This document shows positions 1 to 16,640 of a stretch of DNA of 31,818 nucleotides, piece by piece. The DNA comes from a virus. Position numbers and translations under genes: made by a program. How positions within the stretch are numbered: the stretch's first letter is position 1; every line of letters starts with the position of its first letter. The stretch covers positions 1 to 31,818 of the IMG/VR virus record IMGVR_UViG_3300010885_062701; one strand, given 5' to 3'. The notes under the pieces are model-generated. The model was given only the letters and a program-made list of their open reading frames with translations, did no database searches and had not been told where the DNA came from.

Positions 1-351
1 ATCCTCGAGGCCTCGACCTACTACCGCCCGAGCTACAGCATCGACGGCTCCGGCCAGGTCGGCGCTCCGTTCTCGATCGGCGCCGAGAAGGTTGGTACCC
101 TGAGCAACCGCTTCACGGTGTACAAGGATCCGTACTTCCCCCGCAACAAGATCCTTGTTGGTTTCAAGGGCGGAAGCTACCTCGAGACCGGCTACGTCTA
201 CGCTCCGTACGTCCCGCTGATTGTCACCCCGACGATCTTCGCGCCTGAGGACTTCACCCCGAGAAAGGGTGTCATGACTCGCTACGGCAAGAAGATGGTC
301 AGGTCGGACTTCTACGGTACGGTCACCTGCCTCGACCTCAACATCATCTGA
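1..351 (+). CDS. 23: major capsid protein, T4 gp23-like, C-terminal 116 residues (5' end outside window)
   Basis: The frame is open from base 1 to the TGA at 349-351, so this is the end of a gene that begins left of the window; the GTG at 118 is only an internal Val codon. The C-terminus carries the signature I associate with T4 gp23-type capsid proteins: a GFKGGS segment, then YAPYVPL, then F-x-P-R-K-G-x-x-TRYGKK. In T4 the equivalent stretch has a YKG element, YxPYVPL and a Q-P-K-I-G-F-x-T-R-Y-G element. The protein builds the hexamers of the head shell. A strong hairpin terminator follows within 30 bases, consistent with a highly expressed late gene with its own transcript end. The family is seen directly in the motifs; the gene number is by analogy with T4. 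Confidence 0.88.
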   Translation: MLEASTYYRPSYSIDGSGQVGAPFSIGAEKVGTLSNRFTVYKDPYFPRNKILVGFKGGSYLETGYVYAPYVPLIVTPTIFAPEDFTPRKGVMTRYGKKMVRSDFYGTVTCLDLNII

Positions 352-464: not shown

Positions 465-1427
465 ATGAAGATTACCGAGGCGAGACTTCGCCAGATCCTT
501 CGTGAGGAATCACGTCGCGTTAGATTGTTTGAAGCACCTGCAGACGACGGTGATACAGGAACAGCGAGCGTATCTGCACCAGCACCAGCTCAAGCAGCAC
601 CAGCCGCGCCAGCAACACCGGCAGCGCCTTCCGCTCCCGTCGACCCTGCTGCTGCAGCGGACGCGCAGCTTGAAGCTGACCTCAAAGATATTATGTTCGG
701 CGCAGGTGGAACGGCAGAGACGGGTCGTGATTCAGCTAGCAATTCGACCCTAACGGGAACTGATCCACTTCTTTACTGTGATATGAATGTCGATGCGTTG
801 GGCCCACTTTCAGGTGGAATGGAGGGTCAAGACGACGGTGACCTTGATGACCTTCCGTCTGCTTACAAGCAGGAGATATTCGATCAAGTTCTCTCCGCTG
901 CTAAGTCTGGAACTCTCAATGCGGATAGCTTGTATAAGATCGTTAACGACAAGTACAAGGAAGCTTTCCCGGCTCTGGACAATCTAGAGAGAGAGGACAG
1001 AACGTACGCTCTGGGAACAGATTTCTTCTGGCGTTTTATTAGCGCGGCGATCATGAAGTGGAAAAAAGCGGGCGGGAAGCCCGGCGGCGCCGTCGCTCCG
1101 GCACCTTCTCCCACACCAACTCCAGGTCCTGGTCCGACACCAACTCCTGGAACGAAGACGTACACCGTCGTAAGAGGAGATACTCTGTCGCAGATCTGCC
1201 TTCGTTTCTACGGAAATGGAACCCCTCCAGCTTACAAAGCGCTTGCAGCTGCTCTTAACAAACCAGACCCCAACGTGATAAAAGTCAATGAGAAGCTGGC
1301 TCTTCCGACGTCTATAACTGTGAATGGTGCTGCTCTCCAACGCAGGGACACCGCACCCATAGCAAGAGGCTCAGGGGGTACATTGACGGAAGGCCGTCGG
1401 AAGATCTCGATCAACTGGGGCATCTGA
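465..1427 (+). CDS. LysM-domain protein with ITEARLRQILREE leader
   Basis: This 320-residue protein starts at ATG 465 after a GGAGA site at 452-456. Parts in order: a charged helical leader (residues 2-15, I-T-E-A-R-L-R-Q-I-L-R-E-E); an Ala/Pro-rich low-complexity linker (about 25-70); a globular region (about 75-200) I do not recognise; a Pro/Thr/Gly linker (about 208-230); and a LysM module (about 232-282) with the hallmark Y-T-V-x-x-G-D-T-L-S-x-I, then N-x-x-x-P-x-x-I-K-V-N-E-K-L-x-L-P. LysM domains bind GlcNAc in peptidoglycan. No lytic catalytic domain is evident, so a structural or packaged wall-binding role is more likely than a lysin. It opens a four-gene block after the capsid terminator. 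The leader recurs at 4785. The LysM call is firm; the role is inferred. Confidence 0.8.
   Translation: MKITEARLRQILREESRRVRLFEAPADDGDTGTASVSAPAPAQAAPAAPATPAAPSAPVDPAAAADAQLEADLKDIMFGAGGTAETGRDSASNSTLTGTDPLLYCDMNVDALGPLSGGMEGQDDGDLDDLPSAYKQEIFDQVLSAAKSGTLNADSLYKIVNDKYKEAFPALDNLEREDRTYALGTDFFWRFISAAIMKWKKAGGKPGGAVAPAPSPTPTPGPGPTPTPGTKTYTVVRGDTLSQICLRFYGNGTPPAYKALAAALNKPDPNVIKVNEKLALPTSITVNGAALQRRDTAPIARGSGGTLTEGRRKISINWGI
1113..1150 (+). repeat. short direct repeat in a Pro/Thr linker
   Basis: Two 14-base copies differing at one base, ACACCAACTCCAGG (1113-1126) and ACACCAACTCCTGG (1137-1150), encode a PTPTPG-type linker before the LysM domain. This is probably a coding repeat that varies in length by slippage, not a regulatory element. 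Confidence 0.6.
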
Positions 1428-1443
1428 GCTCAAGGAGCGTAAA

Positions 1444-2979
1444 TTGTTTAGCATCTCAAAGTTCATGTTCGGTGCTGCTCCCGTCAATGAGGGGGGCAAC
1501 ACCAGAGCACTCGTTCGAGACCCAGAGACGGGCCTAGTTTCGGGTCCTGACCAGGTCAGGCAGTTCCGCGGTCGATCTGCTTTTGCTGAAAAAATAGATC
1601 TTCGATCCGGCAGGATAAATCGTCAGGATCTGAGACGCGACGTCATTGAGATGCTTCAGGTCCTCGATGATGAGTTCAACAACGACCACGGTGAGCCGCT
1701 TTGGGATCGAGCCCAACGCGATGATGTCCTGGGTTCCGGATTCGCCTTTAACGGATCATCAGCGCATCTCTTCGCCCCTCCAGAGACTCTGTCGGACGAG
1801 AAGTTCCTAGAGTTTAAGCCGACAGTGGGGGACATCGACCTCACGGTTCCAGTTGATAAGATGAACGGGCTCTTTTCAACGCTCAACCGTCGTGAGGATG
1901 AGCAGCTCACCCCAAGAATTGCGTACGTCGGTCACAACAAAAAGAGCCCGGGTCAGCACCAGATCAACGCTCTCTTCGCTTACACATGGGATCCCTCCGC
2001 TCCTCCCGGTGAGGGGGATACGTTCTTTCAGATTGACTTCGAAGGATCTGAGTACGAGGGCGGTCGACCCTCTCCGTGGGCAAAGTTTTCATACTCGTCC
2101 TCCTGGAGAGACATCGAGGCGGGTGTGAAAGGTCTCGCGCACAAGATCCTTCTATTCTCGCTTGCTGCAGTTCGTTCTCCCCCACCCATCGATGCACGTC
2201 TTGCCACGGACGCAGCCTCGGCCGAGAATCCGAAGATCTCGATGACCAAGGACAGGAAGTACGTGCCACCCAGCGCCGAGGAGATCGAGAGCAAGATCCA
2301 GGCTCGTGCGTCCGAGATCGAATCACAGCAGCCTCGAATAAGCCCGGCGACCGCTCGCCGTAAAGCTGAGACCGAGGTCAAGGCTGAGCTCTCAGCAGCT
2401 GAGAAGAAGCCCGCTCGTTTGAGACCCATGAAATCCCTCGATCTTGTGACTGGATACTCCGACAGGTACAGGAAGCTCGACTGGCAGCACAACGGGAATG
2501 ATGTCTACAAGTACTTGAAACGAGTTGAGAGAACCCAAGCGATTCGTGATATCAGACAAATATTCACAGGGATGTTCGGAGATAATCCGCCGCCTACGGA
2601 AAAAGAGATGGAGGACTTTGGATCATTCCTCGGTACGCTCGATATAATGAAAAACAGGATGACTCCACCTGAAATTGTTAGGGTTTACGAGGAGATGGCA
2701 ATCAGGCTCTTCGGTGCAGTTGCCCAGCAAATTTCAGCAACTGACAAGAACGAAGATATGAGCGTCAAGGAAAAGATCCTTGAGGTCTTCAGGCAAATCC
2801 TTCCCGAAGCTGAATCCTCCACGATGGACATCGAGGGTATGAAGGCAAGCTTCTACGCGAAGTACAAGGTTCGTGGAGAGGAAGGATTCACTGAGGACGA
2901 CACAGCTCCAGGTGAAGTCGATGAATCGAAAGCTTATCGTCTCAATCGTCTCATAGAATCTGCAATCTGGGGAAGCTGA
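1444..2979 (+). CDS. Pol-beta-superfamily nucleotidyltransferase-like protein
   Basis: This 511-residue protein most likely starts at TTG 1444, because AAGGAG (1432-1437) sits six bases upstream and no better start is near. An N-GSS motif (in FNGSSAHLF, about residue 103) is followed by K-P-T-V-G-D-I-D-L-T-V-P, with GDID at residues 129-132. This is the hG[GS]...DxD arrangement of Pol-beta-type nucleotidyltransferases, whose two Asp residues hold the metal. I have seen similar short phage proteins in T4-like genomes annotated only as nucleotidyltransferase. The C-terminal 250 residues are Lys/Glu-rich and helical with no recognised domain, and end in R-L-N-R-L-I-E-S. An early VNEGGN segment resembles the start region of other marine phage relatives. 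It overlaps the next gene at TGATG, so the two are probably translationally coupled. Substrate unknown. Confidence 0.6.
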   Translation: MFSISKFMFGAAPVNEGGNTRALVRDPETGLVSGPDQVRQFRGRSAFAEKIDLRSGRINRQDLRRDVIEMLQVLDDEFNNDHGEPLWDRAQRDDVLGSGFAFNGSSAHLFAPPETLSDEKFLEFKPTVGDIDLTVPVDKMNGLFSTLNRREDEQLTPRIAYVGHNKKSPGQHQINALFAYTWDPSAPPGEGDTFFQIDFEGSEYEGGRPSPWAKFSYSSSWRDIEAGVKGLAHKILLFSLAAVRSPPPIDARLATDAASAENPKISMTKDRKYVPPSAEEIESKIQARASEIESQQPRISPATARRKAETEVKAELSAAEKKPARLRPMKSLDLVTGYSDRYRKLDWQHNGNDVYKYLKRVERTQAIRDIRQIFTGMFGDNPPPTEKEMEDFGSFLGTLDIMKNRMTPPEIVRVYEEMAIRLFGAVAQQISATDKNEDMSVKEKILEVFRQILPEAESSTMDIEGMKASFYAKYKVRGEEGFTEDDTAPGEVDESKAYRLNRLIESAIWGS

Positions 2980-4781
2980 TGTCAACCGATATCTCGATCG
3001 AAGATCTCAAGAAGGTCATGGTTCGTCCTGACGCGTCTCCACGCGCGCGGGCCAATGATATAAAGAAAGCCCAGGTGTTCCTGAGTGATCCCAGCATCAA
3101 GATCGTAGAGAAGATCGACGGCACGAAGCTCACGCTCCTCCGTCGAAACAACGCGTTCGATCCAGAAGATTACACCAAGAATTGGTACATCGCTTACAAG
3201 GGCAACGTCATCTATCCGGGTGAGGCACGCGGCCTTGCTGCACGCGAGGAGGAGGTTCGTTCAGGATCATCCGGAACAGCTCAGTACTCTCTCGTTCACT
3301 CTCACCTTGCGCAGGTTCATAGAAACACCGCTGCGATTCCTCCCGGGACCGAATTCTTTCTCGAGTTTGTTCAGCGGAAGCCAACGATCAGCCGTGAGTA
3401 TCCTCGGAAGCATGGGATCTTCCTGACCCTCTTCGGTCCTTCAAGGTACAAGGTGACAGGAACCTATCTTGTCTCGAACATCACTCCGCAGAACGATGAG
3501 GCAAAGCTCGAGGAGTATGCCAGGTTGCTCGGAGTTCAGACATATCCCGTTCTCTTCGAAGGTAACCTCGAGTCATTCCAGGGATTGAAGTCGGGCATCA
3601 AGAGCGCTTCCATCGAGCGACGGGCTGCCGACCTTGATTCAAAGCTAAGAGCAGCTTACGGAGACTCTGGTCCTGATCGAGTTCTGAAGATAGTCGATTC
3701 TATCTACGATTTATTCTCTGACTTCGATACATCGCTCTCAACAGAGAGCGAGCGCTCACCAGCAGAGGGATCTGTCTTTAGGACGTCGGCCACCCAGGCC
3801 CTGTACAAGGCACTTCGTTTTGACCAGCACGATGTTGAGCATCGACAGGCGATCAAGCAGAAGTTTAGGGCTGCGACGAAGGAGGACGAACAGGCTTACT
3901 GGAACGGCATCGTTAGCATCGCCAATGAGATCTCGTCTGAGCACGCTCCCGCCCAGCGTCGAAACGTGCCCGAGAGCGATCTCGATGAAATTTTCGAGAG
4001 GATCCACGCGGAGTGTTACTTCGACGCTGCGATCTCGAATCGATTGGGTGCTCTAAATCATCCGAAGACTCTCATACAACGTCAGGAGGACCTGTTCCTC
4101 ACAACGAAGACGCAGGTGATGAAGCGTCTCGAGATTGGGACGCAGAACGGAATCAGCATTGGAATCTTCGTAGTCTCTGGAAAGCCCGTCCACGCTGGTC
4201 ACTGGCAGATGATCAGCCTCGCATCTCAGGAGTGCGACGAGGCTCTCATAATCACTTCGACCGCTGGCCGCGATGAGCTGCCACCGGGCGTGATGATCGA
4301 CGCGTGGAAGGCGGTGCTGGAGCCCCAGTTTCACCGTGATTTTCCGAATGCGACCCTCATCATCTCACCGGAATCTCCGCTGAGCCTCGCTGTCGATAAG
4401 ATGCGTCAGCTGAAGAACGTTGTCAGCAAGTTCGTGTTCTACTCTGACGATGAGGACGCTCGGGTGAAATACTCACCCTCGAAGATGGCTGATAACATCA
4501 GGGATCCAGCTGTCATAGAGAAATTCGAGCAGCGTCCGGTATCGAGAGCTGAGACCGTCCAGATCTCAGGGACAAGGATGAGGCAGTTTCTCGCCGCCGA
4601 TGATAAGCAGTCATTCGACCAGTACGTGCCCCAGACCTTGAGTCCGGAGATGAAGGACAAGTACTGGTCCATCCTGAAGGGTGAGCACGGAGCGATTGTC
4701 GATTCCCGCAGAAGGTCATCTCTGCTTAAGATTCTTTTTGAAAGTGTCAAGAACAAAAATAAATACAAGAAAGGGAGATAA
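2979..4781 (+). CDS. fusion of ligase-like (KxDG) domain and HxGH nucleotidylyltransferase
   Basis: This 600-residue protein starts at ATG 2979, overlapping the previous stop. The N-terminal half has V-E-K-I-D-G-T-K, with K45-I-D-G48 matching motif I of covalent nucleotidyltransferases (RNA/DNA ligases and capping enzymes), then E-F-F-L-E-F (about 127-132) like motif III, and A-E-G-S-V-F (about 265) like motif IV. The C-terminal half has H405-A-G-H408, the (H/T)xGH nucleotide-binding motif of NMN/nicotinate adenylyl- and cytidylyltransferases, and I529-S-G-T-R-M-R535, close to their ISSTxxR motif. A ligase-type adenylyltransferase is thus joined to a Rossmann-type adenylyl- or cytidylyltransferase. 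A role in RNA repair or NAD-linked nucleotide metabolism is plausible but inferred. The tail is basic and ends with L-L-K-I-L-F-E-S and a Lys-rich segment. GGGAG for the next gene lies inside its last codons. Confidence 0.68.
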   Translation: MSTDISIEDLKKVMVRPDASPRARANDIKKAQVFLSDPSIKIVEKIDGTKLTLLRRNNAFDPEDYTKNWYIAYKGNVIYPGEARGLAAREEEVRSGSSGTAQYSLVHSHLAQVHRNTAAIPPGTEFFLEFVQRKPTISREYPRKHGIFLTLFGPSRYKVTGTYLVSNITPQNDEAKLEEYARLLGVQTYPVLFEGNLESFQGLKSGIKSASIERRAADLDSKLRAAYGDSGPDRVLKIVDSIYDLFSDFDTSLSTESERSPAEGSVFRTSATQALYKALRFDQHDVEHRQAIKQKFRAATKEDEQAYWNGIVSIANEISSEHAPAQRRNVPESDLDEIFERIHAECYFDAAISNRLGALNHPKTLIQRQEDLFLTTKTQVMKRLEIGTQNGISIGIFVVSGKPVHAGHWQMISLASQECDEALIITSTAGRDELPPGVMIDAWKAVLEPQFHRDFPNATLIISPESPLSLAVDKMRQLKNVVSKFVFYSDDEDARVKYSPSKMADNIRDPAVIEKFEQRPVSRAETVQISGTRMRQFLAADDKQSFDQYVPQTLSPEMKDKYWSILKGEHGAIVDSRRRSSLLKILFESVKNKNKYKKGR

Positions 4782-4784
4782 ATC

Positions 4785-5852
4785 ATGTTAATTTCTGAGT
4801 CCACGCTGCGTCGTATCATACGCGAGGAAGCTCACAGAGCGATGAGAGAGCAGGCAGCCACACGCACTATTTCCGGTGCGATCAAGGTCGGACAGGGAAT
4901 TCCCTTGGGAATGCCAGGTACCCCGATCAACGCTGGAAACTGGACGATTCCTGTGAGCCTAGCCGATAGGATGCGTAATGACCCGACGTTCCTACAGGTT
5001 CATGCTGGCGCCGGTGCAGGGCAGGGACAGGTCACCTTAAAGACCGGATCCAAGGGAACCGCTGTCAGCATCTATCAGGAGCTTCTGCAGCTTGCCATGA
5101 ACGCCTCAGGCATTCCACTGCCGAAAGGATTCAAGGTCGACGGTGACTACGGTCCTAACACTCAGAAAGCGACGATAGCCTTCCAGAACGCCGCTAGCCT
5201 TCCAGTGGACGGCGTCGTAGGTCGAAATGTTATTGCAGCTCTCATTGGAAAGCAGGCCGCGATCACGGGTAAGACTGGCATCGACACGGCTCCTGTGCAG
5301 TCGACATTGCAGGTTCAGGCGCCCAACACTCCGATCGGTCAGGATCAGACCGCGCGCGATGTGAACACGGTCATGAACCTGCTGGCAAGGTCGGTCCAGA
5401 CGGCGATCGATCAGTATCAGGATACCACAAACGGCAGAAACATCTTTGACCAGAAGATGCTGTTCGCCCGCGATAACCTGCGGTTCGCAGTCCTCCTCGC
5501 AAATGCAGCGCAGACGGCGAGATCTGTTGGAACCGTTGCGACCCGCAGTGAGTTAAGCATGATCATCCAGAAGCTGACCGAGATCAAAGTCCTATTCGCA
5601 AATCATCTAGGAGTTCCGGCTACAGGTGACATAACGAAGGGAGAGGACAGCGCGGTTGAGATGACATCTGGCACCAATCGTGAGGCTAGCAGATTCATCT
5701 ACATCGTCAACAACCCAACGGCTGACAGCCTCCTGATCCTTGCCAAGAAGCCGTACGCTCTGGGCGGTGGAACCATGGTCGGGGTTGCAGGTGCCATGAC
5801 CTCACAGTCCGCGAAGAAGACGTACTTGGCCAATCAGGCCAGCGTGAAGTAA
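4785..5852 (+). CDS. peptidoglycan-binding protein (PG_binding_1 type) with leader peptide
   Basis: This 355-residue protein starts at ATG 4785, three bases after the previous stop, with GGGAG at 4773-4777. Residues 2-16 (I-S-E-S-T-L-R-R-I-I-R-E-E-A) repeat the leader of the LysM protein at 465. Residues about 84-154 form a peptidoglycan-binding domain of the PG_binding_1 type: L-K-x-G-S-x-G-x-x-V-x-x-x-Q-x-L-L, then V-D-G-D-Y-G-P-N-T, then A-F-Q-N, then V-D-G-V-V-G-x-x-V-I-A-A-L. The remaining 200 residues are unrecognised and contain no visible amidase, muramidase or peptidase motif. It closes the accessory block and is followed by a strong hairpin. It may be a virion-associated wall-binding protein, or head or internal protein; the binding domain is firm, the location is not. 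Confidence 0.78.
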   Translation: MLISESTLRRIIREEAHRAMREQAATRTISGAIKVGQGIPLGMPGTPINAGNWTIPVSLADRMRNDPTFLQVHAGAGAGQGQVTLKTGSKGTAVSIYQELLQLAMNASGIPLPKGFKVDGDYGPNTQKATIAFQNAASLPVDGVVGRNVIAALIGKQAAITGKTGIDTAPVQSTLQVQAPNTPIGQDQTARDVNTVMNLLARSVQTAIDQYQDTTNGRNIFDQKMLFARDNLRFAVLLANAAQTARSVGTVATRSELSMIIQKLTEIKVLFANHLGVPATGDITKGEDSAVEMTSGTNREASRFIYIVNNPTADSLLILAKKPYALGGGTMVGVAGAMTSQSAKKTYLANQASVK

Positions 5853-9070: not shown

Positions 9071-12000
9071 ATGTCGGAACAAATCTTTCGCTCTCCTGGA
9101 TTCTTTGAACGGGAGATAGAGCTTACCGCCCCGGGCGCGCAACCGACGGGCGTCCCAGGTGGGCTCATCGGAGCCGCAGCCTCGGGGCCGGCCTTTGTGC
9201 CGACGACCGTGTCGTCTTTTTCGGATTTTTCGGCTCGCTTCGGCGGCCTTGACCCGGATCGTCCTGCAACTTACGCCGCCAATGAGTGGCTGAAGCACAA
9301 GGGTGCCCTCACCTTCATCCGCGTCCTCGGCGCGGGTGCAAACGCGAGCATGTCCGACGTCGCAACGACCCTGACTCAGGGTGTGGTGCGCAACGCTGGA
9401 TTCAAGGTGACAGGATCAACCGTCGCCCTCCCGGCTGGCGACGCCCGTAAGACAGGAGCCGTGCAGTTCCTTGTCGCCCGTCACTCGATCCCAGCAAGCT
9501 CAACCACACCTTCTGAGTGGAAGGGATTCCCGATTTTCAGCGAGAACCCAAGCTTCAACCCGCCCTCCATCGGAGACACCCTGAACATCGTTCGTGGCGT
9601 TCTCATGTTCCCGACCGGTGCGCGAGGAATGGTTCTCGACATGACGGGAGCAAACTCCCAGTGGTCCGACGGCGGCTCGGTGATCGATGATGTTGCCTCA
9701 ACGGATCTCAATGCTGCTTCCTCGAACTACAAGAAGTTCAAGTTCGTGATCTCGAGCTCGCAGGGCTCATCTTTCGGGACGACAGACGGCTACAGCGGGC
9801 TTCGAATCCTGACAGCGTCTCTCAACCCGAGCGCGAATGATTACTTCGGTAAGGTCTTCAACACGGACCCGAAGAAGTTCCAGGCTGAGCAGCACGTGCT
9901 CTACCTCGACTTCCCGATCGAGGACGAGCTCGTCGGTCTCGATGTCACGGGTGACAGCTGCGTCGCGGTCGCCTCAGGATCGTCGAACACATACCTCCAG
10001 AATTTTGGGCGGTTCGACACACGTTACACGACAGCCCGGACTCCCGCGATCATCTCGCAGCCCTTCGGAAGCCTCGAGCATGAGCTCTTCTACTTTGAGA
10101 CTCTCACCGACGGAGAGTCAGGAAACGCTCTCTACAAGGTCTCGATCTCCAACGTGAAGGCCTCGACGGATCCGAGAAATCCGTACGGCACCTTCGATGT
10201 CAACGTTCGCGACCTGTACGACTCTGACACTTCTCCCCAGATTCTGGAGACCTTCGCAGGTTGCGACATCAACCCAGCGAGCCAGAACTACGTCGCTAAG
10301 AAGATCGGTGACCTCAAGGTCTCTTACAACTTCGACGCAAGCGACGAGTCCGAGCAGCGTCTTGTGATCAATGGAAACTTCCCGAACGCAAGTCGCAGGA
10401 TCAGGGTCATCACGGCAGCTGGTCTCACGACGGGTGTTGTTCCCGCAAGCGCCCTTCCGTTCGGATTCAAGGGTATCCCGGTTGTCAGAACATCGCAGAC
10501 CCTGACCGACACTTCCTCGGCTCTCACCGAGGGAACGAGAACCTACGGTGCTGGTGCGAACGCTCTCCCGAGACTTTACTGCAGCAGCTCCGTTGCGACA
10601 ACCCTCACGGGCTCGATCGTTCCACCGCTTCCGTTCCGCTTCAAGGCGACGAAGGGAACCGTGGACGGATCTGCCTACATCGGATCGCCGGGTCTCCTCG
10701 AGATTCCTGACTCACGCTACCACTGGGGCGTGAAGTTCGAGCGTCTGCCTGCGACAGCTTCCATCTCAAGCGCCGTGATGAACTCCAACGATGGGACCGA
10801 GTTCAATCCTCTTATCCTTTCCTACTCGAAGATGCAGGGAATCCAGAAGCTCTACGCTCTCGTGACTGGATCCGATGCCGATATCTTCAACGCGAATAAG
10901 TTCACTCTCGCTAGGGTCGCACTTTCCAACACATCACTAACGGATGTCACGGGAACTGTCGAAGCTCACATGAAGGAGACGGCTTACATCAGGAATGGAG
11001 TTCCGAGCACAACGGACTACAGGATCGCTGATGCCGCTCTTGGTGGAAGCCGAATCACCTTCGCCTCACTGCTTTCAGGTTCGGCGAACACATTCAACAA
11101 GTTCGCTGAGTACGCAAAGTTCTCGACGATGTTCTACGGTGGATTCGACGGAGTCAACATCCTCGACGCAGCTTCTGCGAAGCTCGGGGATCGTGCCACC
11201 TCAACGGAGTCCGGTGGGCTCGCGGCAGGTGGTGTTGAGCCGATCGCAAGATCAGGTCTCGGTTACGACCCGGCGGGCAGCAGCCTTAGCAACAACGCTG
11301 TGAACTCCTACAGGGTCGCTTCGAAGCTCATGACTGACAAGTACACCGTCAATGTCAATGTGATCGCAACGCCCGGCGTCCGCGAGCCGCTCGTGACCGA
11401 CTACCTCGCTCGCAGGCTTTCGTCCTACGCTCTTGGAATGTACGTTCTTGATGCTCCGGCTTACTCCGACGCAAATGTTAGAATCTTTGAGGATTCTGCG
11501 TTGAAGCCGAACGTCACGAAGACCGCTGACGCTGTTACCGCAAGGTCACTCAACAACAACTACGTCGCTACCTACTTCCCGGATGTGTTCGTCAATGATA
11601 CAACAACGAACAGAAGGGTCAAGGCGCCCGCCTCCATCGCTGCTCTCGGCGCTCTTGCGTACAGCGACAGAGTCGCCTACCCATGGTACGCGCCGGCTGG
11701 ATTCAACAGGGCTGCTCTTGACTTCGTCACCAACGTTGAAGTAAGGCTTAACACATCCGATCGCGACTACCTGTACGATAACAGAATTAACCCAATCGCG
11801 ACCTTCCCTGGTAACGGTTTCGTTATCTTCGGACAGAAGACACTCCAGGTTTCGAAGTCGGCCTTCGATAGGGTCAACGTTCGCAGGCTCTTCCTCGAGC
11901 TCAAGCGCGTTATCCAGGACGTGGCACGTGGCCTTCTGTTCGAGCCCAACGACGCGACAACGAGGCAGTCTTTCATCGATCGAGCCACCCCGCTTCTGAG

Positions 12001-12181
12001 TCTCATCAAGGCGCAGGCTGGTATCGAGCAGTTCAGGATCGTCATGGATTCAACGAATAACACTGCTGCCGATGTTGCCGCGTACAGGTTGAATGGTCGA
12101 ATTGTTGTGGTTCCAACAAGAGCGGTAGAATTCATCGCTGTCGACTTTATCATCACACCGGCGGGCGTCGAGTTCGTCTAA
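9071..12181 (+). CDS. 18: tail sheath protein, gp18-like, copy 1
   Basis: This 1036-residue protein starts at ATG 9071 with AGGAG at 9060-9064. The N-terminus (F-R-S-P-G-F-F-E-R-E-I-E, then G-G-L-I-G-A-A, then F-I-R-V-L-G-A-G) is the sheath opening. The C-terminus (A-F-D-R-V-N-V-R-R-L-F-L-E-L-K-R, L-L-F-E-P-N-D, then V-D-F-I-I) is the conserved domain that links subunits around the tube. It is far longer than T4 gp18 (659 residues); the extra length sits in the middle and probably forms surface domains. The 65-base gap upstream (9006-9070) holds only this ribosome site and AT-rich sequence with no hairpin that I can see. A second complete copy follows at 12221. Confidence 0.92.
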   Translation: MSEQIFRSPGFFEREIELTAPGAQPTGVPGGLIGAAASGPAFVPTTVSSFSDFSARFGGLDPDRPATYAANEWLKHKGALTFIRVLGAGANASMSDVATTLTQGVVRNAGFKVTGSTVALPAGDARKTGAVQFLVARHSIPASSTTPSEWKGFPIFSENPSFNPPSIGDTLNIVRGVLMFPTGARGMVLDMTGANSQWSDGGSVIDDVASTDLNAASSNYKKFKFVISSSQGSSFGTTDGYSGLRILTASLNPSANDYFGKVFNTDPKKFQAEQHVLYLDFPIEDELVGLDVTGDSCVAVASGSSNTYLQNFGRFDTRYTTARTPAIISQPFGSLEHELFYFETLTDGESGNALYKVSISNVKASTDPRNPYGTFDVNVRDLYDSDTSPQILETFAGCDINPASQNYVAKKIGDLKVSYNFDASDESEQRLVINGNFPNASRRIRVITAAGLTTGVVPASALPFGFKGIPVVRTSQTLTDTSSALTEGTRTYGAGANALPRLYCSSSVATTLTGSIVPPLPFRFKATKGTVDGSAYIGSPGLLEIPDSRYHWGVKFERLPATASISSAVMNSNDGTEFNPLILSYSKMQGIQKLYALVTGSDADIFNANKFTLARVALSNTSLTDVTGTVEAHMKETAYIRNGVPSTTDYRIADAALGGSRITFASLLSGSANTFNKFAEYAKFSTMFYGGFDGVNILDAASAKLGDRATSTESGGLAAGGVEPIARSGLGYDPAGSSLSNNAVNSYRVASKLMTDKYTVNVNVIATPGVREPLVTDYLARRLSSYALGMYVLDAPAYSDANVRIFEDSALKPNVTKTADAVTARSLNNNYVATYFPDVFVNDTTTNRRVKAPASIAALGALAYSDRVAYPWYAPAGFNRAALDFVTNVEVRLNTSDRDYLYDNRINPIATFPGNGFVIFGQKTLQVSKSAFDRVNVRRLFLELKRVIQDVARGLLFEPNDATTRQSFIDRATPLLSLIKAQAGIEQFRIVMDSTNNTAADVAAYRLNGRIVVVPTRAVEFIAVDFIITPAGVEFV

Positions 12182-12220: not shown

Positions 12221-15200
12221 ATGGCTGCGCCAGGCATAACACTAAACGAGATCGATAGCACCGGTGGTGTAACGGAGGTTCAACCCTCGGGCCGCTCCGC
12301 CGGTGTGATTGGAACGGCAACGCAGGGAACGGCGTTCGTGCCGATCACCTTCGCGAATAACACACAGTTCACAACTGAGTTCGGCAATCCGGATGCGAAT
12401 TATCACGCTCCCTTTGCCCTGTACCAGTGGCTTAGCAACGCCTCAGCTGGAACATACGTCAGGGTTCTCGGCGCCGGAGACGGAAACAAGAGAACGACAG
12501 GCGCCACAAACGCAGGAAGCGTGACAAATGCAGGATTCGTGGTCGGCTCCCGGAAGGTTCAGGTGTCCAACGGTCAGCTCGGCAACAATCCCTACGCGAC
12601 TGCCGGCGGTCTGGAAGGTAGGACGTACTTCCTCGGATGCTACATGTCCGAGTCTGCGGGCTCCTGGTTACTTTCCGAGCCAGGAATCCAGACATCGACG
12701 GCAGCCCAGCCGATCGTTCGCGGCGTTCTTTTCGCAGCGTCGGGAGTTCAGATCACCGTATCAAGCTCAGCGCCGGGAGCGACATCTGATATCTACTCAT
12801 TAGCTGCGACGACTGCCAGCCCTGCAAAAGGCTGGTTCACCGGATCGCTCGATCTCCGGAGCGGAGAGCAGACATTCGTGCTCTTCCTGAACGGACACAC
12901 CGATTCCGCTGGTTACCCAAGCATCCTCACGGCATCATTCAACCCAACTTCCGACTCCTACTTCGGAGCAAAGTTCAACAGCAACCCACTTCTTCTCGAA
13001 GAGCACGGCTACGTCCTCTACAATCACTACGACGTTCTGGACGCTTTCGCAGTCCCAACTGGATCCGGAGTTGCAGCTGAGGCTGCGATCCGTCGTGTTA
13101 GCACGTCAGCCGCTGTCGAAGAGATCGTGTTCTGCCTTTCCGGCTCTCAGTCAAGGAACAACGGAACCACAACATTCCCGAACTACGACGGATTCGAGGA
13201 CAGGTACGGTCATCCGATGACCCCGTACGTAACATCCCAGAACTTCGGTGGGACTCGCTACAATCTCTTCAAGATCCACGCTCGTGGCGACGGTGCAGCG
13301 ACCAATGAACTGTACAGGGTCGCGATCGAAAGCATCAAGTACCCTGCTGCTGGCTCTTACGCTACGTTCACCGTGAAGATTCTTAGCTTTACCGGAGAGG
13401 ACGGCTACGCGACCGTATACGAGACATACTCTGGATGCGATCTTGATCCTGATAGCGACAACTTCATTGGAAAGAAGATCGGTGACCAGAACACCTACTT
13501 CGATTTCGATCGTACCGCTGATGCCCAGAAGATCATTGAGGAAGGACTCTACGGCAAGGTCTCACGTCGGGTCAGAGTTGAGCTCTCTGATGAAGTCATC
13601 AACAAGGTCATCCCGTCGAACACTATTCCCGTCGGTTCACGTGGTCTCTACCACCTAGTGACCTCTGGGTCTGGTTTCATGTCGACTGGTTCATCGGGCC
13701 CGTCGGCTCACCTCAACGTTCCCCTGACGAACGCGCGTGAGGCGCCGGTCTTCTTCCGTCGCAGCATCAACGTAGGAGACGTTGCCGGTGGCGCGAACGC
13801 CACGGGCGAGAGCAAGCTCTACTGGGGACCCCAGTTCGGCCTCTACAACTCAACGACTCGTCCTAACGATGGAGTCTCGACCTCCACCGAGACACTCGGT
13901 GCTGGCGGACTTTCAAGCTACACCAAGTACTTCCCGAAGTACCACACGACCTATCAGAACCCGTGGGTCGGTGACAATGATGGCGCAGCCACCGTCAACG
14001 GCTCCGTGGTGGACGCTGACCTCTTCAACAGGAACCTCTTTACGCTTGAGAACATCCAGGTTCAGACAAGCTCCGGCGGTACTCTCGACAGAGACCGTTG
14101 GGACGAGGCTGTGTACCAGAGGGACGGAATTCTTGACGCCAGCCTCGGTGGACGTTTCATCGACACAACGATCGATTTCCCGTCCAGTACTCCGTCATCT
14201 TACCTCAAGTTCGTGACCTTCATGCAGGGAGGCTTCGATGGTCTCAACATCTTCGATGCAGATAAATTCTACATGCGTGATGCTGCGGCTCGTCGAGAGA
14301 TGGACTACAGCAACCAGGGTCAGCTGAACGGACCGACGGTCGCTGCCTATCGCAAGGCGGTAGACATCATGGGTAACAAGACTTACTCGGACATCAGCGT
14401 CCTCGCGATTCCGGACACTCGTCACCCCGCGATCACCGACTACGCTCTCTCGGCGATGCAGACAAAGTTCGATGCTCTTTACATCGCCGATGTCGAGCTG
14501 AAGGACGATAACAACAACTTCGTGACTGCCTCCATCAACGCCGGGTCTTCATACCCCAACGTCAACGTCGCGTTCACATCAACGAGGTTCAAGAATCGCA
14601 GCCTCAACAGCTCATTCGGTGCTGCTTACTTCCCGGACGTGAACGTCAGCGTTGACCCGGGAACCGGCGTAGCAGTTAGCACACGCCTTCCAGCTTCGAC
14701 CCTGGTCCTCGGCGCCTACGCGCAGAACGATCGGATCGGATTCACTTGGAGCGCACCGGCAGGCTACACAAGAGCGGTTATTCCTGGAAACTCCCTTAGC
14801 ACGATACTCAACAACGATAACATCAACACCGTTTACGATGCTGGTATCAACCCGATCGTTTCGGTTCCTGGCGCGAATATCGTGATCAATGGACAGAGGA
14901 CAACTCTCGTTGAGGGCTCGGCTCTTGATCGTGTTAACGTCCGTCGTCTGCTCATCGAGGTTCGTCGTCGAGTGAAGGCTGTTGCTTACGGTCTTCTTTT
15001 CGAGCCGAACAGAGAGTCGACCATCGCTCGTTTCAATGCTGCCGTTACACCGATAATGAAGCAGATCCAGTCCCAGCGCGGTGTTGAGAGGTATCGCGTG
15101 CAGATTGACACCACCACCACCACACAGGCTGACATAGAGAATAACACGATTCGTGGTAAGATCTACCTGCAGCCGACAAAGACCGCAGAGTTCATCTCGA

Positions 15201-15238
15201 TTGATTTCGAGGCGACAAATGCTTCAACCTTTGTCTAA
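12221..15238 (+). CDS. 18: tail sheath protein, gp18-like, copy 2
   Basis: This 1005-residue protein starts at ATG 12221 with AAGGAG at 12207-12212. It is a clear paralogue of the protein before it: G-V-I-G-T-A against G-L-I-G-A-A, R-V-L-G-A-G in both, the central G-C-D-L/I-x-P-x-S-x-N and K-K-I-G-D in both, F-Y/M-x-G-G-F-D-G-L/V-N-I in both, and L-D-R-V-N-V-R-R-L plus L-L-F-E-P-N near the end. It therefore keeps both the N-terminal arm and the C-terminal linking domain and looks functional. The two copies have diverged widely outside these blocks, so the duplication is old. A mixed sheath, or different copies for different tail zones, is possible; which copy is the main sheath cannot be told here. 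Confidence 0.92.
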   Translation: MAAPGITLNEIDSTGGVTEVQPSGRSAGVIGTATQGTAFVPITFANNTQFTTEFGNPDANYHAPFALYQWLSNASAGTYVRVLGAGDGNKRTTGATNAGSVTNAGFVVGSRKVQVSNGQLGNNPYATAGGLEGRTYFLGCYMSESAGSWLLSEPGIQTSTAAQPIVRGVLFAASGVQITVSSSAPGATSDIYSLAATTASPAKGWFTGSLDLRSGEQTFVLFLNGHTDSAGYPSILTASFNPTSDSYFGAKFNSNPLLLEEHGYVLYNHYDVLDAFAVPTGSGVAAEAAIRRVSTSAAVEEIVFCLSGSQSRNNGTTTFPNYDGFEDRYGHPMTPYVTSQNFGGTRYNLFKIHARGDGAATNELYRVAIESIKYPAAGSYATFTVKILSFTGEDGYATVYETYSGCDLDPDSDNFIGKKIGDQNTYFDFDRTADAQKIIEEGLYGKVSRRVRVELSDEVINKVIPSNTIPVGSRGLYHLVTSGSGFMSTGSSGPSAHLNVPLTNAREAPVFFRRSINVGDVAGGANATGESKLYWGPQFGLYNSTTRPNDGVSTSTETLGAGGLSSYTKYFPKYHTTYQNPWVGDNDGAATVNGSVVDADLFNRNLFTLENIQVQTSSGGTLDRDRWDEAVYQRDGILDASLGGRFIDTTIDFPSSTPSSYLKFVTFMQGGFDGLNIFDADKFYMRDAAARREMDYSNQGQLNGPTVAAYRKAVDIMGNKTYSDISVLAIPDTRHPAITDYALSAMQTKFDALYIADVELKDDNNNFVTASINAGSSYPNVNVAFTSTRFKNRSLNSSFGAAYFPDVNVSVDPGTGVAVSTRLPASTLVLGAYAQNDRIGFTWSAPAGYTRAVIPGNSLSTILNNDNINTVYDAGINPIVSVPGANIVINGQRTTLVEGSALDRVNVRRLLIEVRRRVKAVAYGLLFEPNRESTIARFNAAVTPIMKQIQSQRGVERYRVQIDTTTTTQADIENNTIRGKIYLQPTKTAEFISIDFEATNASTFV

Positions 15239-15807: not shown

Positions 15808-15844
15808 ATCTGGTCCATGGTATATTTACTATCATGGACCAGAT
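15808..15844 (+). promoter_or_regulatory. 15-bp hairpin covering the HNH endonuclease start codon
   Basis: Arms at 15808-15822 (ATCTGGTCCATGGTA) and 15830-15844 (TATCATGGACCAGAT) pair over 15 positions with one G-U and a 7-base loop. The ATG at 15834 is in the right arm, so readthrough RNA from the tube gene would hide the start. No Shine-Dalgarno sequence is visible in front of the ATG. The loop region TATATTTA matches 6 of 8 bases of the T4 late promoter. A transcript starting inside the loop would lack the left arm and free the start. T4 intron endonuclease genes are controlled in this way. Confidence 0.72.
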
Positions 15845-16640
15845 TTCTTTTAAGTGCCCTTCTTGCGTAGACTATTCGACCGACAGCCTGGATTCGCTTC
15901 GAATCCACTGCCAGAAACGCCATGGAATCACCGCACGTGATCTCTACGTGAGCTTGTTTATTCCTGGCGGCCAAGAACCCACGTGCGGCTGTGGGTGCGG
16001 GACGACGACCAAGTTTAACTCCCTTCAGAAGGGATTCTCGGGGTACATTCTCGGACATGCATCTCGCGTCAAGAATAATTGGGGAAATAATAAGGCTGCG
16101 CTGGCTAAGAGCCTTGAAGCGCGTCGCAAAGAAGAGCGATGGGGTTGTAATCCGTGGAATCGAGGTAAAACGAAAGAAAATGACTCCGATTTCGCGAAGT
16201 TATGCGAAATTGCGTACGGATCTGACAAAGAAAGAAAGAGAAAGTCAGAAATGATGACGAGACATTGGCAGACCGGGGTCATCGTTCCGCTCACCGGCTC
16301 GGCTCATCCGCAGTGGAAGGGCGGGACATCGACAATCGGGACGCTGTGCCACGGCAGCTCGCGACTCTACAAGCTCTGGAAGTTCCCAGCCCTGCAGCGA
16401 GCAGGGTTCAAGTGCGAGCGTTGCGCCGCGACCGACGATCTCCACGTCCATCACAGCGAGGTTCGTATGGCGGAGATCATCCATCGGTGCGCCCCCACGT
16501 CGGATGAGATCAGCTGGGAGGATCAGGCAGCGTGGGTCGAGCGGGTGATCGACTGGCACGTTGAGATGATGCCCACCGCCGAGGTTCTCTGCCATCGCTG
16601 CCACGGTGAGGAGCACCCATCACTTAACTTTGATCCGTGA
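15834..16640 (+). CDS. free-standing HNH homing endonuclease with N-terminal zinc finger
   Basis: This 268-residue protein begins with a C2H2-type finger (C8-x2-C11-x13-H25-x4-H30), followed by a C-G-C-G-C element near residue 52 and G-H-A-S, common in phage HNH proteins. The middle (about 85-150) is Lys/Arg-rich and has N-P-W-N-R-G-K-T-K-E, like the DNA-binding NUMOD-type repeats. The HNH nuclease is C-terminal: C194-x2-C197, H204-V-H-H207, and C253-H-R-C256-H-G-x-x-H261. It would cut DNA of relatives lacking the insertion and spread by repair. It interrupts the tube to gp26-like gene order. By eye the middle part is more A-rich than the neighbouring tail genes, fitting horizontal origin. 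Cleavage site unknown. Confidence 0.86.
   Translation: MDQISFKCPSCVDYSTDSLDSLRIHCQKRHGITARDLYVSLFIPGGQEPTCGCGCGTTTKFNSLQKGFSGYILGHASRVKNNWGNNKAALAKSLEARRKEERWGCNPWNRGKTKENDSDFAKLCEIAYGSDKERKRKSEMMTRHWQTGVIVPLTGSAHPQWKGGTSTIGTLCHGSSRLYKLWKFPALQRAGFKCERCAATDDLHVHHSEVRMAEIIHRCAPTSDEISWEDQAAWVERVIDWHVEMMPTAEVLCHRCHGEEHPSLNFDP

Follow-up and report, generated by a model that had tools for sequence, protein, structure and literature searches.

A short leader peptide shared by unrelated proteins of uncultivated T4-type phages is probably a cleavable head-targeting signal

A leader pair next to a capsid gene

The window analyzed here is a 31.8-kb stretch of virus DNA (31,818 nucleotides, IMG/VR record IMGVR_UViG_3300010885_062701) that begins within a gp23-type major capsid gene, whose 3′ part it contains. 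Four same-strand genes lie downstream, with a head-tail adaptor gene after them, and our subject is a short leader peptide found at the N-termini of two of their products, a LysM protein and a peptidoglycan-binding protein. The two genes in between encode a nucleotidyltransferase-like (NTase-like) protein and a protein with ligase-like and nucleotidylyltransferase features, hereafter the third protein. The positions of these four open reading frames (ORFs) agree with those in an earlier note on this DNA, which had proposed that the leader is a capsid-targeting tag (Table 1).

Table 1. Features of the leader locus in the window (arrows mark predicted or possible cuts; aa, amino acids)
Feature	Position	Strand	Basis
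gp23-type major capsid protein, C-terminal part; start outside the window	1..351	+	Pfam Gp23, E-value 1.2e-22; PHROG major head protein
LysM protein, 320 aa	465..1427	+	ORF; LysM 21.6 bits, cut-off 20.9
Leader of LysM protein, MKITEARLRQILREESRRVRLFE; predicted cut after E23 (L-F-E↓A)	465..533	+	Motif, site list, leader family
C-terminal L-T-E↓G and tail of LysM protein	1383..1424	+	Site list; comparable tail, M-L-S-E↓S, in relative L403
NTase-like protein, 511 aa	1444..2979	+	ORF; phrog_19290
N-terminal propeptide of NTase-like protein, MFSISKFMFGAAPVNE; predicted cut V-N-E↓GGN	1444..1491	+	Relatives; low-confidence end of the model
C-terminal tag of NTase-like protein, RLNRLIE↓SAIWGS	2938..2976	+	Relatives; helix 495-509 on low-confidence tail 484-511
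Ligase-like/nucleotidylyltransferase protein (third protein, ORF3), 600 aa	2979..4781	+	ORF
C-terminal tag of third protein, LLKILFE↓SVKNKNKYKKGR	4722..4778	+	Relatives; helix 582-598
Peptidoglycan-binding protein, 355 aa	4785..5852	+	ORF; PG_binding_1, E-value 9.1e-10
Leader of peptidoglycan-binding protein, MLISESTLRRIIREEAHRAMRE; possible cut M-R-E↓Q	4785..4850	+	Motif; compare YLME↓QA in relative L417

The resemblance between the two leaders is real, although the positions given for it earlier (residues 2-15 and 3-16) were wrong: it covers residues 3-15 in both proteins, which places the leaders in the same register. With 8 of 13 residues identical, they form the best N-terminal pair among the 22 called genes. 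At least 8 identities were reached in one of 1000 N-terminal shuffles (score 10) and in none of 1000 draws of internal 18-mers, and a six-frame search of the window finds the motif at these two places only. The view that the two bodies are unrelated holds up as well, since past the leaders BLASTP aligns low-complexity or unrelated sequence only and the domains differ (LysM versus PG_binding_1). Likely maturation sites that the earlier note had missed lie just past the leaders, L21-F-E23↓A in the LysM protein and M20-R-E22↓Q in the peptidoglycan-binding protein; it had also missed V14-N-E16↓GG in the N-terminal segment of the NTase-like protein and, close to the C-terminus of the LysM protein, L-T-E↓G at residue 307.

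A leader family across IMG/VR

A degenerate DNA pattern for M-K-x-x-E-x-x-L-R-x-I-x-R-E-E matched 38 stretches in IMG/VR, several with more than one copy. Two broader patterns matched at least 120 stretches each, compared with no match in IMG/VR for a control in which the same codons were scrambled. The first pattern, the only one tried on bacterial and archaeal genomes, had no match there in 257 billion bases. The consensus of the family is M-K-[IL]-T-x-x-x-L-[RK]-x-I-I-[RK]-E-E-L. Collecting leader-bearing proteins from the IMG/VR loci, as the earlier note had suggested, yielded 354 proteins, 319 of which are less than 50% alike past residue 22; this set is drawn without loci L050-L124 and without ORFs shorter than 45 residues, and the window contributes one of the 319. 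When the parts past residue 26 of 297 complete leader proteins of at least 80 aa were compared, they fell into 240 BLAST clusters, including 202 singletons, and the leader is thus a short N-terminal segment common to unrelated proteins. At its fixed residues synonymous codons vary freely (six Leu, four Thr and three Ile codons), and therefore the peptide, not the DNA, is conserved.

A relaxed form of the pattern occurs 234 times in 37 of the 38 leader contigs of at least 100 kb, with up to 20 occurrences per contig, and the same pattern read backward does not occur there; a slightly stricter version is absent from 41 control contigs and five named records. Two short tblastn queries aimed at isolates returned no T4-type phage. 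In one of the named records, immuto, looser L-x-E N-termini can be seen by eye. We found no description of the leader in the literature searched, a search whose reach did not extend to most subscription journals or to any preprints.

The leader can be very frequent within a single phage. In contig G065, the loose motif heads 54 of 279 called genes, versus one to three per 116-178 genes of at least 60 aa in four control contigs without S77, the gp21 protease family; only the size of these numbers counts, because the leader contigs were selected by the presence of leaders. Between 146.5 and 160 kb of this contig (L529, L530) lie more than 20 small genes, nearly all of which begin with MKITKRQLRRIIKEEKARL[LM][NS]E or a slight variant of it, ahead of bodies that differ. 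At 82-89 kb the same contig holds another leader family, M[KN]LLREYIRxLLxE.

A predicted cleavage site at a fixed distance

The search pattern fixes nothing past residue 15, and yet, across the 319 leaders, positions 16, 19 and 20 favor hydrophobic residues and position 22 favors glutamate, behind which conservation is gone. An [LI]-x-E with its glutamate at residues 18-26 is present in 173 of 319, compared with 28 of 319, 23 of 316 and 32 of 314 in the three intervals that follow and with 73 ± 7 (maximum 97) in 500 trials in which residues 15-30 were shuffled; the wider form [LIMVF]-x-E is present in 224 of 319. The site peaks at E22 and E21, with smaller peaks at 18 and 19. Its middle residue is enriched for Asn (5.8-fold), the residue behind the glutamate is enriched for Ala and Gln (2.4-fold each) and Gly (1.7-fold), and enrichment is weak or absent when the glutamate is replaced by N, D, Q or K. 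The family as a whole thus ends at a site of the L/I-x-E form cut by the T4 protease gp21, although not every member does. Where residue 15 is small, an I-x-E inside the leader could itself serve as the site, and the downstream site is indeed rarer in these leaders (21 of 54, versus 142 of 249 with E15; p = 0.017).

Most large leader contigs encode a gp21-type protease and its capsid substrate

Among the 38 leader contigs of at least 100 kb, S77 is matched above the Pfam cut-off in 34 and gp23 in 33, and in the first 48 leader contigs, mostly fragments, each is found in 11. Most of the large leader contigs therefore encode both the prohead protease and the capsid protein expected of a T4-type system. 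In a small control, S77 is present in 5 of 50 contigs overall and in 2 of the 6 of at least 100 kb; these 50, 43 of them among the longest plus 7 others, come from 91 loci drawn by an arbitrary, hand-chosen 14-mer. The window itself, cut inside the capsid gene, holds a fragment of that gene and no protease, and the protease case for it rests on its relatives. Proteases of four of these relatives align with T4 gp21 (29% identity for the first), and their invariant positions include the HP-motif His, the serine of SSRG and an Asp.

The capsid proteins of leader contigs carry L-[KRD]-E↓[ASQV] at the expected gp23 cut in 36 of 36 cases, with V once; one site (L385) was read by eye, and some capsid and third-protein rows are near-duplicates, so these counts are not all independent. 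Ala and Gln are favored behind the leader glutamate as they are behind the capsid cut, and Gln is unusual enough in this place to be telling.

A small protein encoded before the scaffold gene (L413 4209-4808, with orthologues in L405, L410 and L418) has an N-terminus that varies in length and sequence and mostly ends in [IL]-x-E↓AN, as in MSRRKLSE↓ANNPNYD and MSRQFRLKILE↓ANNPNYD, and it looks like a further protease substrate.

The proteins that carry the leader

Proteins can differ in their leaders and agree directly behind them. The proteins of L332 (leader MKITNEQLKQIIKEELSAVLGE↓) and L016 (MKLILERWNQYLLTE↓) have a common body from VAYSGVV on, directly behind both predicted cuts, and relatives of an L030 protein have short N-termini that end in L-I-K-E and L-V-L-E. 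Of 64 leader proteins with a relative at no more than 90% identity, 51 have one that carries a leader. Two further pairs were not used as examples of leader exchange, L285/L164 for a possible start-call error and L241/L257 for a poor alignment. A T4-like second leader class (W..FLxE) was also considered as a general feature and dropped, as in most contigs it is no more enriched at N-termini than at internal positions.

Annotation sets the leader proteins apart from their neighbors. The 100 longest complete ones match seven Pfam families with one member each (LysM, three pentapeptide families, DUF6745, SAM lyase and ParBc_2, the last two below the cut-off), whereas 100 further proteins of comparable length encoded at the same loci match 40 families, including replication, nucleotide metabolism, tail and S77 protease families. 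The earlier note would have abandoned its proposal had the pattern been equally common in proteins that are clearly not part of the virion; as far as annotation allows one to say, the leader is instead depleted from replication and metabolic proteins.

SAM lyases counter restriction. The leader protein with the weak match to this family lies at L254 1706-2503 (24.7 bits, cut-off 28), and a SAM-lyase-like gene above the cut-off at G076 35846-36166 (L514) starts with MSSGPEKWKSFLNE↓S, which also resembles a capsid-targeting sequence (CTS).

Terminal sites in the two middle proteins

The earlier note had pointed to R-L-N-R-L-I-E-S (residues 499-506 of 511) near the end of the NTase-like protein and to L-L-K-I-L-F-E-S (582-589 of 600) near the end of the third protein. 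Both are present; alone they are weak, and they become credible because they are conserved in relatives of the window. For the NTase-like protein, six loci without a sufficient match were left out of the comparison. L-x-E is kept near the C-terminus in 13 of 17 proteins (I-L-E in two), and at the N-terminus all 17 that have this end, the window included, carry [LIV]-x-E↓GGN with D, N, K, S, Q, V or T as the middle residue. The structural model (mean pLDDT 73) has low confidence at residues 1-18 and 484-511, the two ends that hold the predicted sites.

A search with the third protein found relatives at 23 loci, including a contig with capsid and protease genes (G005). After an in-frame fusion (L409) and a broken frame (L420) had been set aside, and with L035 omitted as a duplicate of L024, [LV]-[FLYW]-E was present at the C-terminus in all 21 proteins that have this end. 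E588 is the last invariant column of the alignment, and the tail is otherwise free in sequence and length. In the model (mean pLDDT 69), a low-confidence linker (574-583) leads into the terminal helix (582-598). The fusion in L409 (10001-12961) joins the third protein and the next leader protein in one frame, and between them stand A-L-L-E↓S, the leader and R-L-T-E↓A; in L407 a leader-like segment sits at a C-terminus.

The NTase-like protein contains what we take by eye to be a GSSxH...GDIDLT motif, and its fold search gave no significant match; the best non-significant folds were small alarmone synthetases (RelP, E-value 0.02) and DNA polymerase beta-type enzymes. The third protein has an EKIDGT motif, presumably ligase-like, also noted by eye, and its C-terminal domain has the PPAT/NMNAT nucleotidylyltransferase fold (Foldseek E-value 4.4e-5 to phosphopantetheine adenylyltransferase).

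Comparison with known head-processing systems

PMC9026906 describes T4 CTSs of 10-19 residues that are cleaved by gp21 at L/I-x-E. The leader resembles the CTSs of the T4 internal proteins IPI, IPII and IPIII in being a short N-terminal segment on unrelated bodies that ends at L/I-x-E (L/I-x-E↓A in T4). As with the T4 internal proteins, the S77 protease and gp23 are encoded by the same phage and the genes lie away from the head cluster. The differences are equally clear. The T4 CTS is MKTYQEFIAE↓A, 10 residues long and present on three proteins, whereas the leader has about 22 residues (LRxIIREEL...LNE↓A), occurs on up to dozens of genes per phage, is sometimes C-terminal and does not carry the T4 sequence. 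The leader family is distinct in sequence from the T4 CTS and our claim concerns mechanism; the leader may be either a functional analogue or a diverged relative.

T4 Alt is processed by gp21 at both ends, according to PMC9026906. The NTase-like protein resembles it in having a conserved L-x-E near both ends (17 of 17 N-terminal, 13 of 17 C-terminal) as predicted sites; unlike Alt, it is a different enzyme, and its processing is predicted from sequence. The two-end processing of Alt, together with the conserved C-terminal L-x-E, makes plausible the earlier suggestion that the tag can sit at either end.

In phiKZ and SPN3US, as set out in the accessible sections of PMC5694885 and PMC10052503, many head proteins have propeptides cut after x-x-E by a gp21-related S80 protease. 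The SPN3US propeptides treated there mostly have 111-254 residues, with only two short ones, and the motif is not L-x-E; those sections describe no common leader family for either phage. The leaders, at about 22 residues, are not long propeptides, and the protease of the leader contigs matches S77 above the cut-off.

Proposed function and alternative explanations

We consider the leader to be, with a probability of roughly 0.8, a cleaved head-targeting signal, that is, a capsid-targeting sequence of the T4 kind. Under this proposal, the short amphipathic, charged segment of about 14-16 residues would dock the cargo to the prohead core, gp21-type cleavage at [LI]-x-E↓ behind the leader would free it inside the maturing head, and the freed cargo would be packaged and could be ejected along with the DNA. 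Phages of this clade may also carry the tag at the C-terminus or at both ends. We infer docking, cleavage, packaging and ejection from sequence, and ejection is a further step that is less certain than cleaved head targeting. Pfam and PHROG matches do not establish the four window proteins as ejected effectors, and that part of the earlier proposal is a guess. Its suggestion that a gp21-type protease cuts the tag is partly supported, having withstood most of the computational checks that might have overturned it: co-occurrence of the protease and a site at a fixed distance speak for it, while a count of N-terminal L-x-E made blind to the leader shows no rise in three of the nine leader contigs.

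That count belongs to a group of observations that weigh against cleaved head targeting. Its odds ratio is 0.9 in G006, G013 and G040 and is raised modestly elsewhere (1.5 in G010; 1.6-3.1 in G005, G018, G065, G076 and G077); four contigs that lack an S77 match give values of 0.7-1.2. A strict [LI]-x-E at residues 18-26 is missing from 146 of 319 leaders; most of these do have I-x-E within the leader, a feature built into the search pattern. Among the 64 leader proteins that have relatives, 29 have at least one relative whose called start shows no leader, which reflects start-call errors in some cases and real absence in others. In the window, the peptidoglycan-binding protein has the weaker site M-R-E↓Q, and the single relative found for it is identical in sequence. 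The 54 of 279 genes in one phage would be much cargo for one head. The exact leader is present in none of five isolate or named records (T4, RM378, immuto, Mel-JY01 and LR756508), upstream promoter words of leader genes are not convincing and do not tie them to late expression, and we found no virion, cleavage or ejection data for any leader phage.

The alternatives differ in how much of this evidence they can absorb. It is possible, though we think it unlikely, that the leader docks to the prohead core and is cut while the cargo, instead of being injected, remains in the head as structural or core material. Leader-type proteins do adjoin protease and scaffold genes, and in T4 gp21 cuts the core proteins gp67, gp68 and gp22 (PMC9026906); most leader genes, however, are far from head genes and often stand in arrays of unrelated small genes, like the T4 internal-protein genes, and the LysM, PG-binding, pentapeptide and nucleotidyltransferase bodies resemble effectors more than scaffold. 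An uncleaved helix that binds some other partner, such as host RNA polymerase, a replication compartment or the membrane, seems improbable. Helix periodicity would also yield L-x-E as a continuation of the amphipathic pattern, in keeping with the smaller peak at residue 18, and the many loosely matching genes of G065 would sit easily with such a role. It would leave unexplained a peak that falls on residues 21-22, prefers Asn as its middle residue, is followed by A, Q or G and marks the end of conservation, as well as a glutamate that D, N or Q does not replace, a protease that is nearly always present and unrelated terminal segments that end in the same site.

The remaining explanations do without a tag or without a peptide. 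Descent of all leader proteins from one ancestor as remote duplicates would fit their tandem arrays but is very hard to reconcile with 240 clusters among 297 proteins, with Pfam matches to unrelated folds and with the same body behind another leader (L332 versus L016). Copies within one genome are strongly similar, as a regulatory element or recombination site lying over the start codon would require, yet the free variation of synonymous codons at fixed residues makes a DNA element scarcely credible. As for chance, the window pair has only 13 residues, 8 of them identical; one of 2000 randomized draws reached 8, hundreds of further copies exist, and the scrambled-pattern control refutes an accidental likeness, which leaves this explanation practically negligible.

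Other features of the window

Two tandem tail-sheath genes of about 1000 residues each (9071-12181 and 12221-15238) match PHROG tail sheath families, and relatives of the window retain the pair. A 268-aa protein (15834-16640) encoded in the tail gene region has a C2H2-like zinc finger at its start, just under the Pfam cut-off; a similar zinc-finger start is found in L404 (613-2025), and the window protein is possibly a free-standing homing endonuclease.

Implications

Slightly better than even, in our estimate, are the odds of a broader picture in which widespread uncultivated T4-type phages load the head with tens of unrelated proteins, encoded by as much as about one fifth of their genes, by means of one portable, cleavable tag that can stand at either end and be exchanged for other tags at the cut. 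Most environmental phage proteins are without known function, and the tag, if it works as proposed, would sort hundreds of these orphans into a head-packed, injected class. Their cargo would then reach the host with the DNA, where anti-defense and take-over proteins act, as in the precedents of T4 IPI and Alt, and the injected arsenal, mostly proteins without a known family, could be read directly from sequence. The leader set also amounts to a list of predicted protease sites and may provide new cargo tags for loading phage heads.

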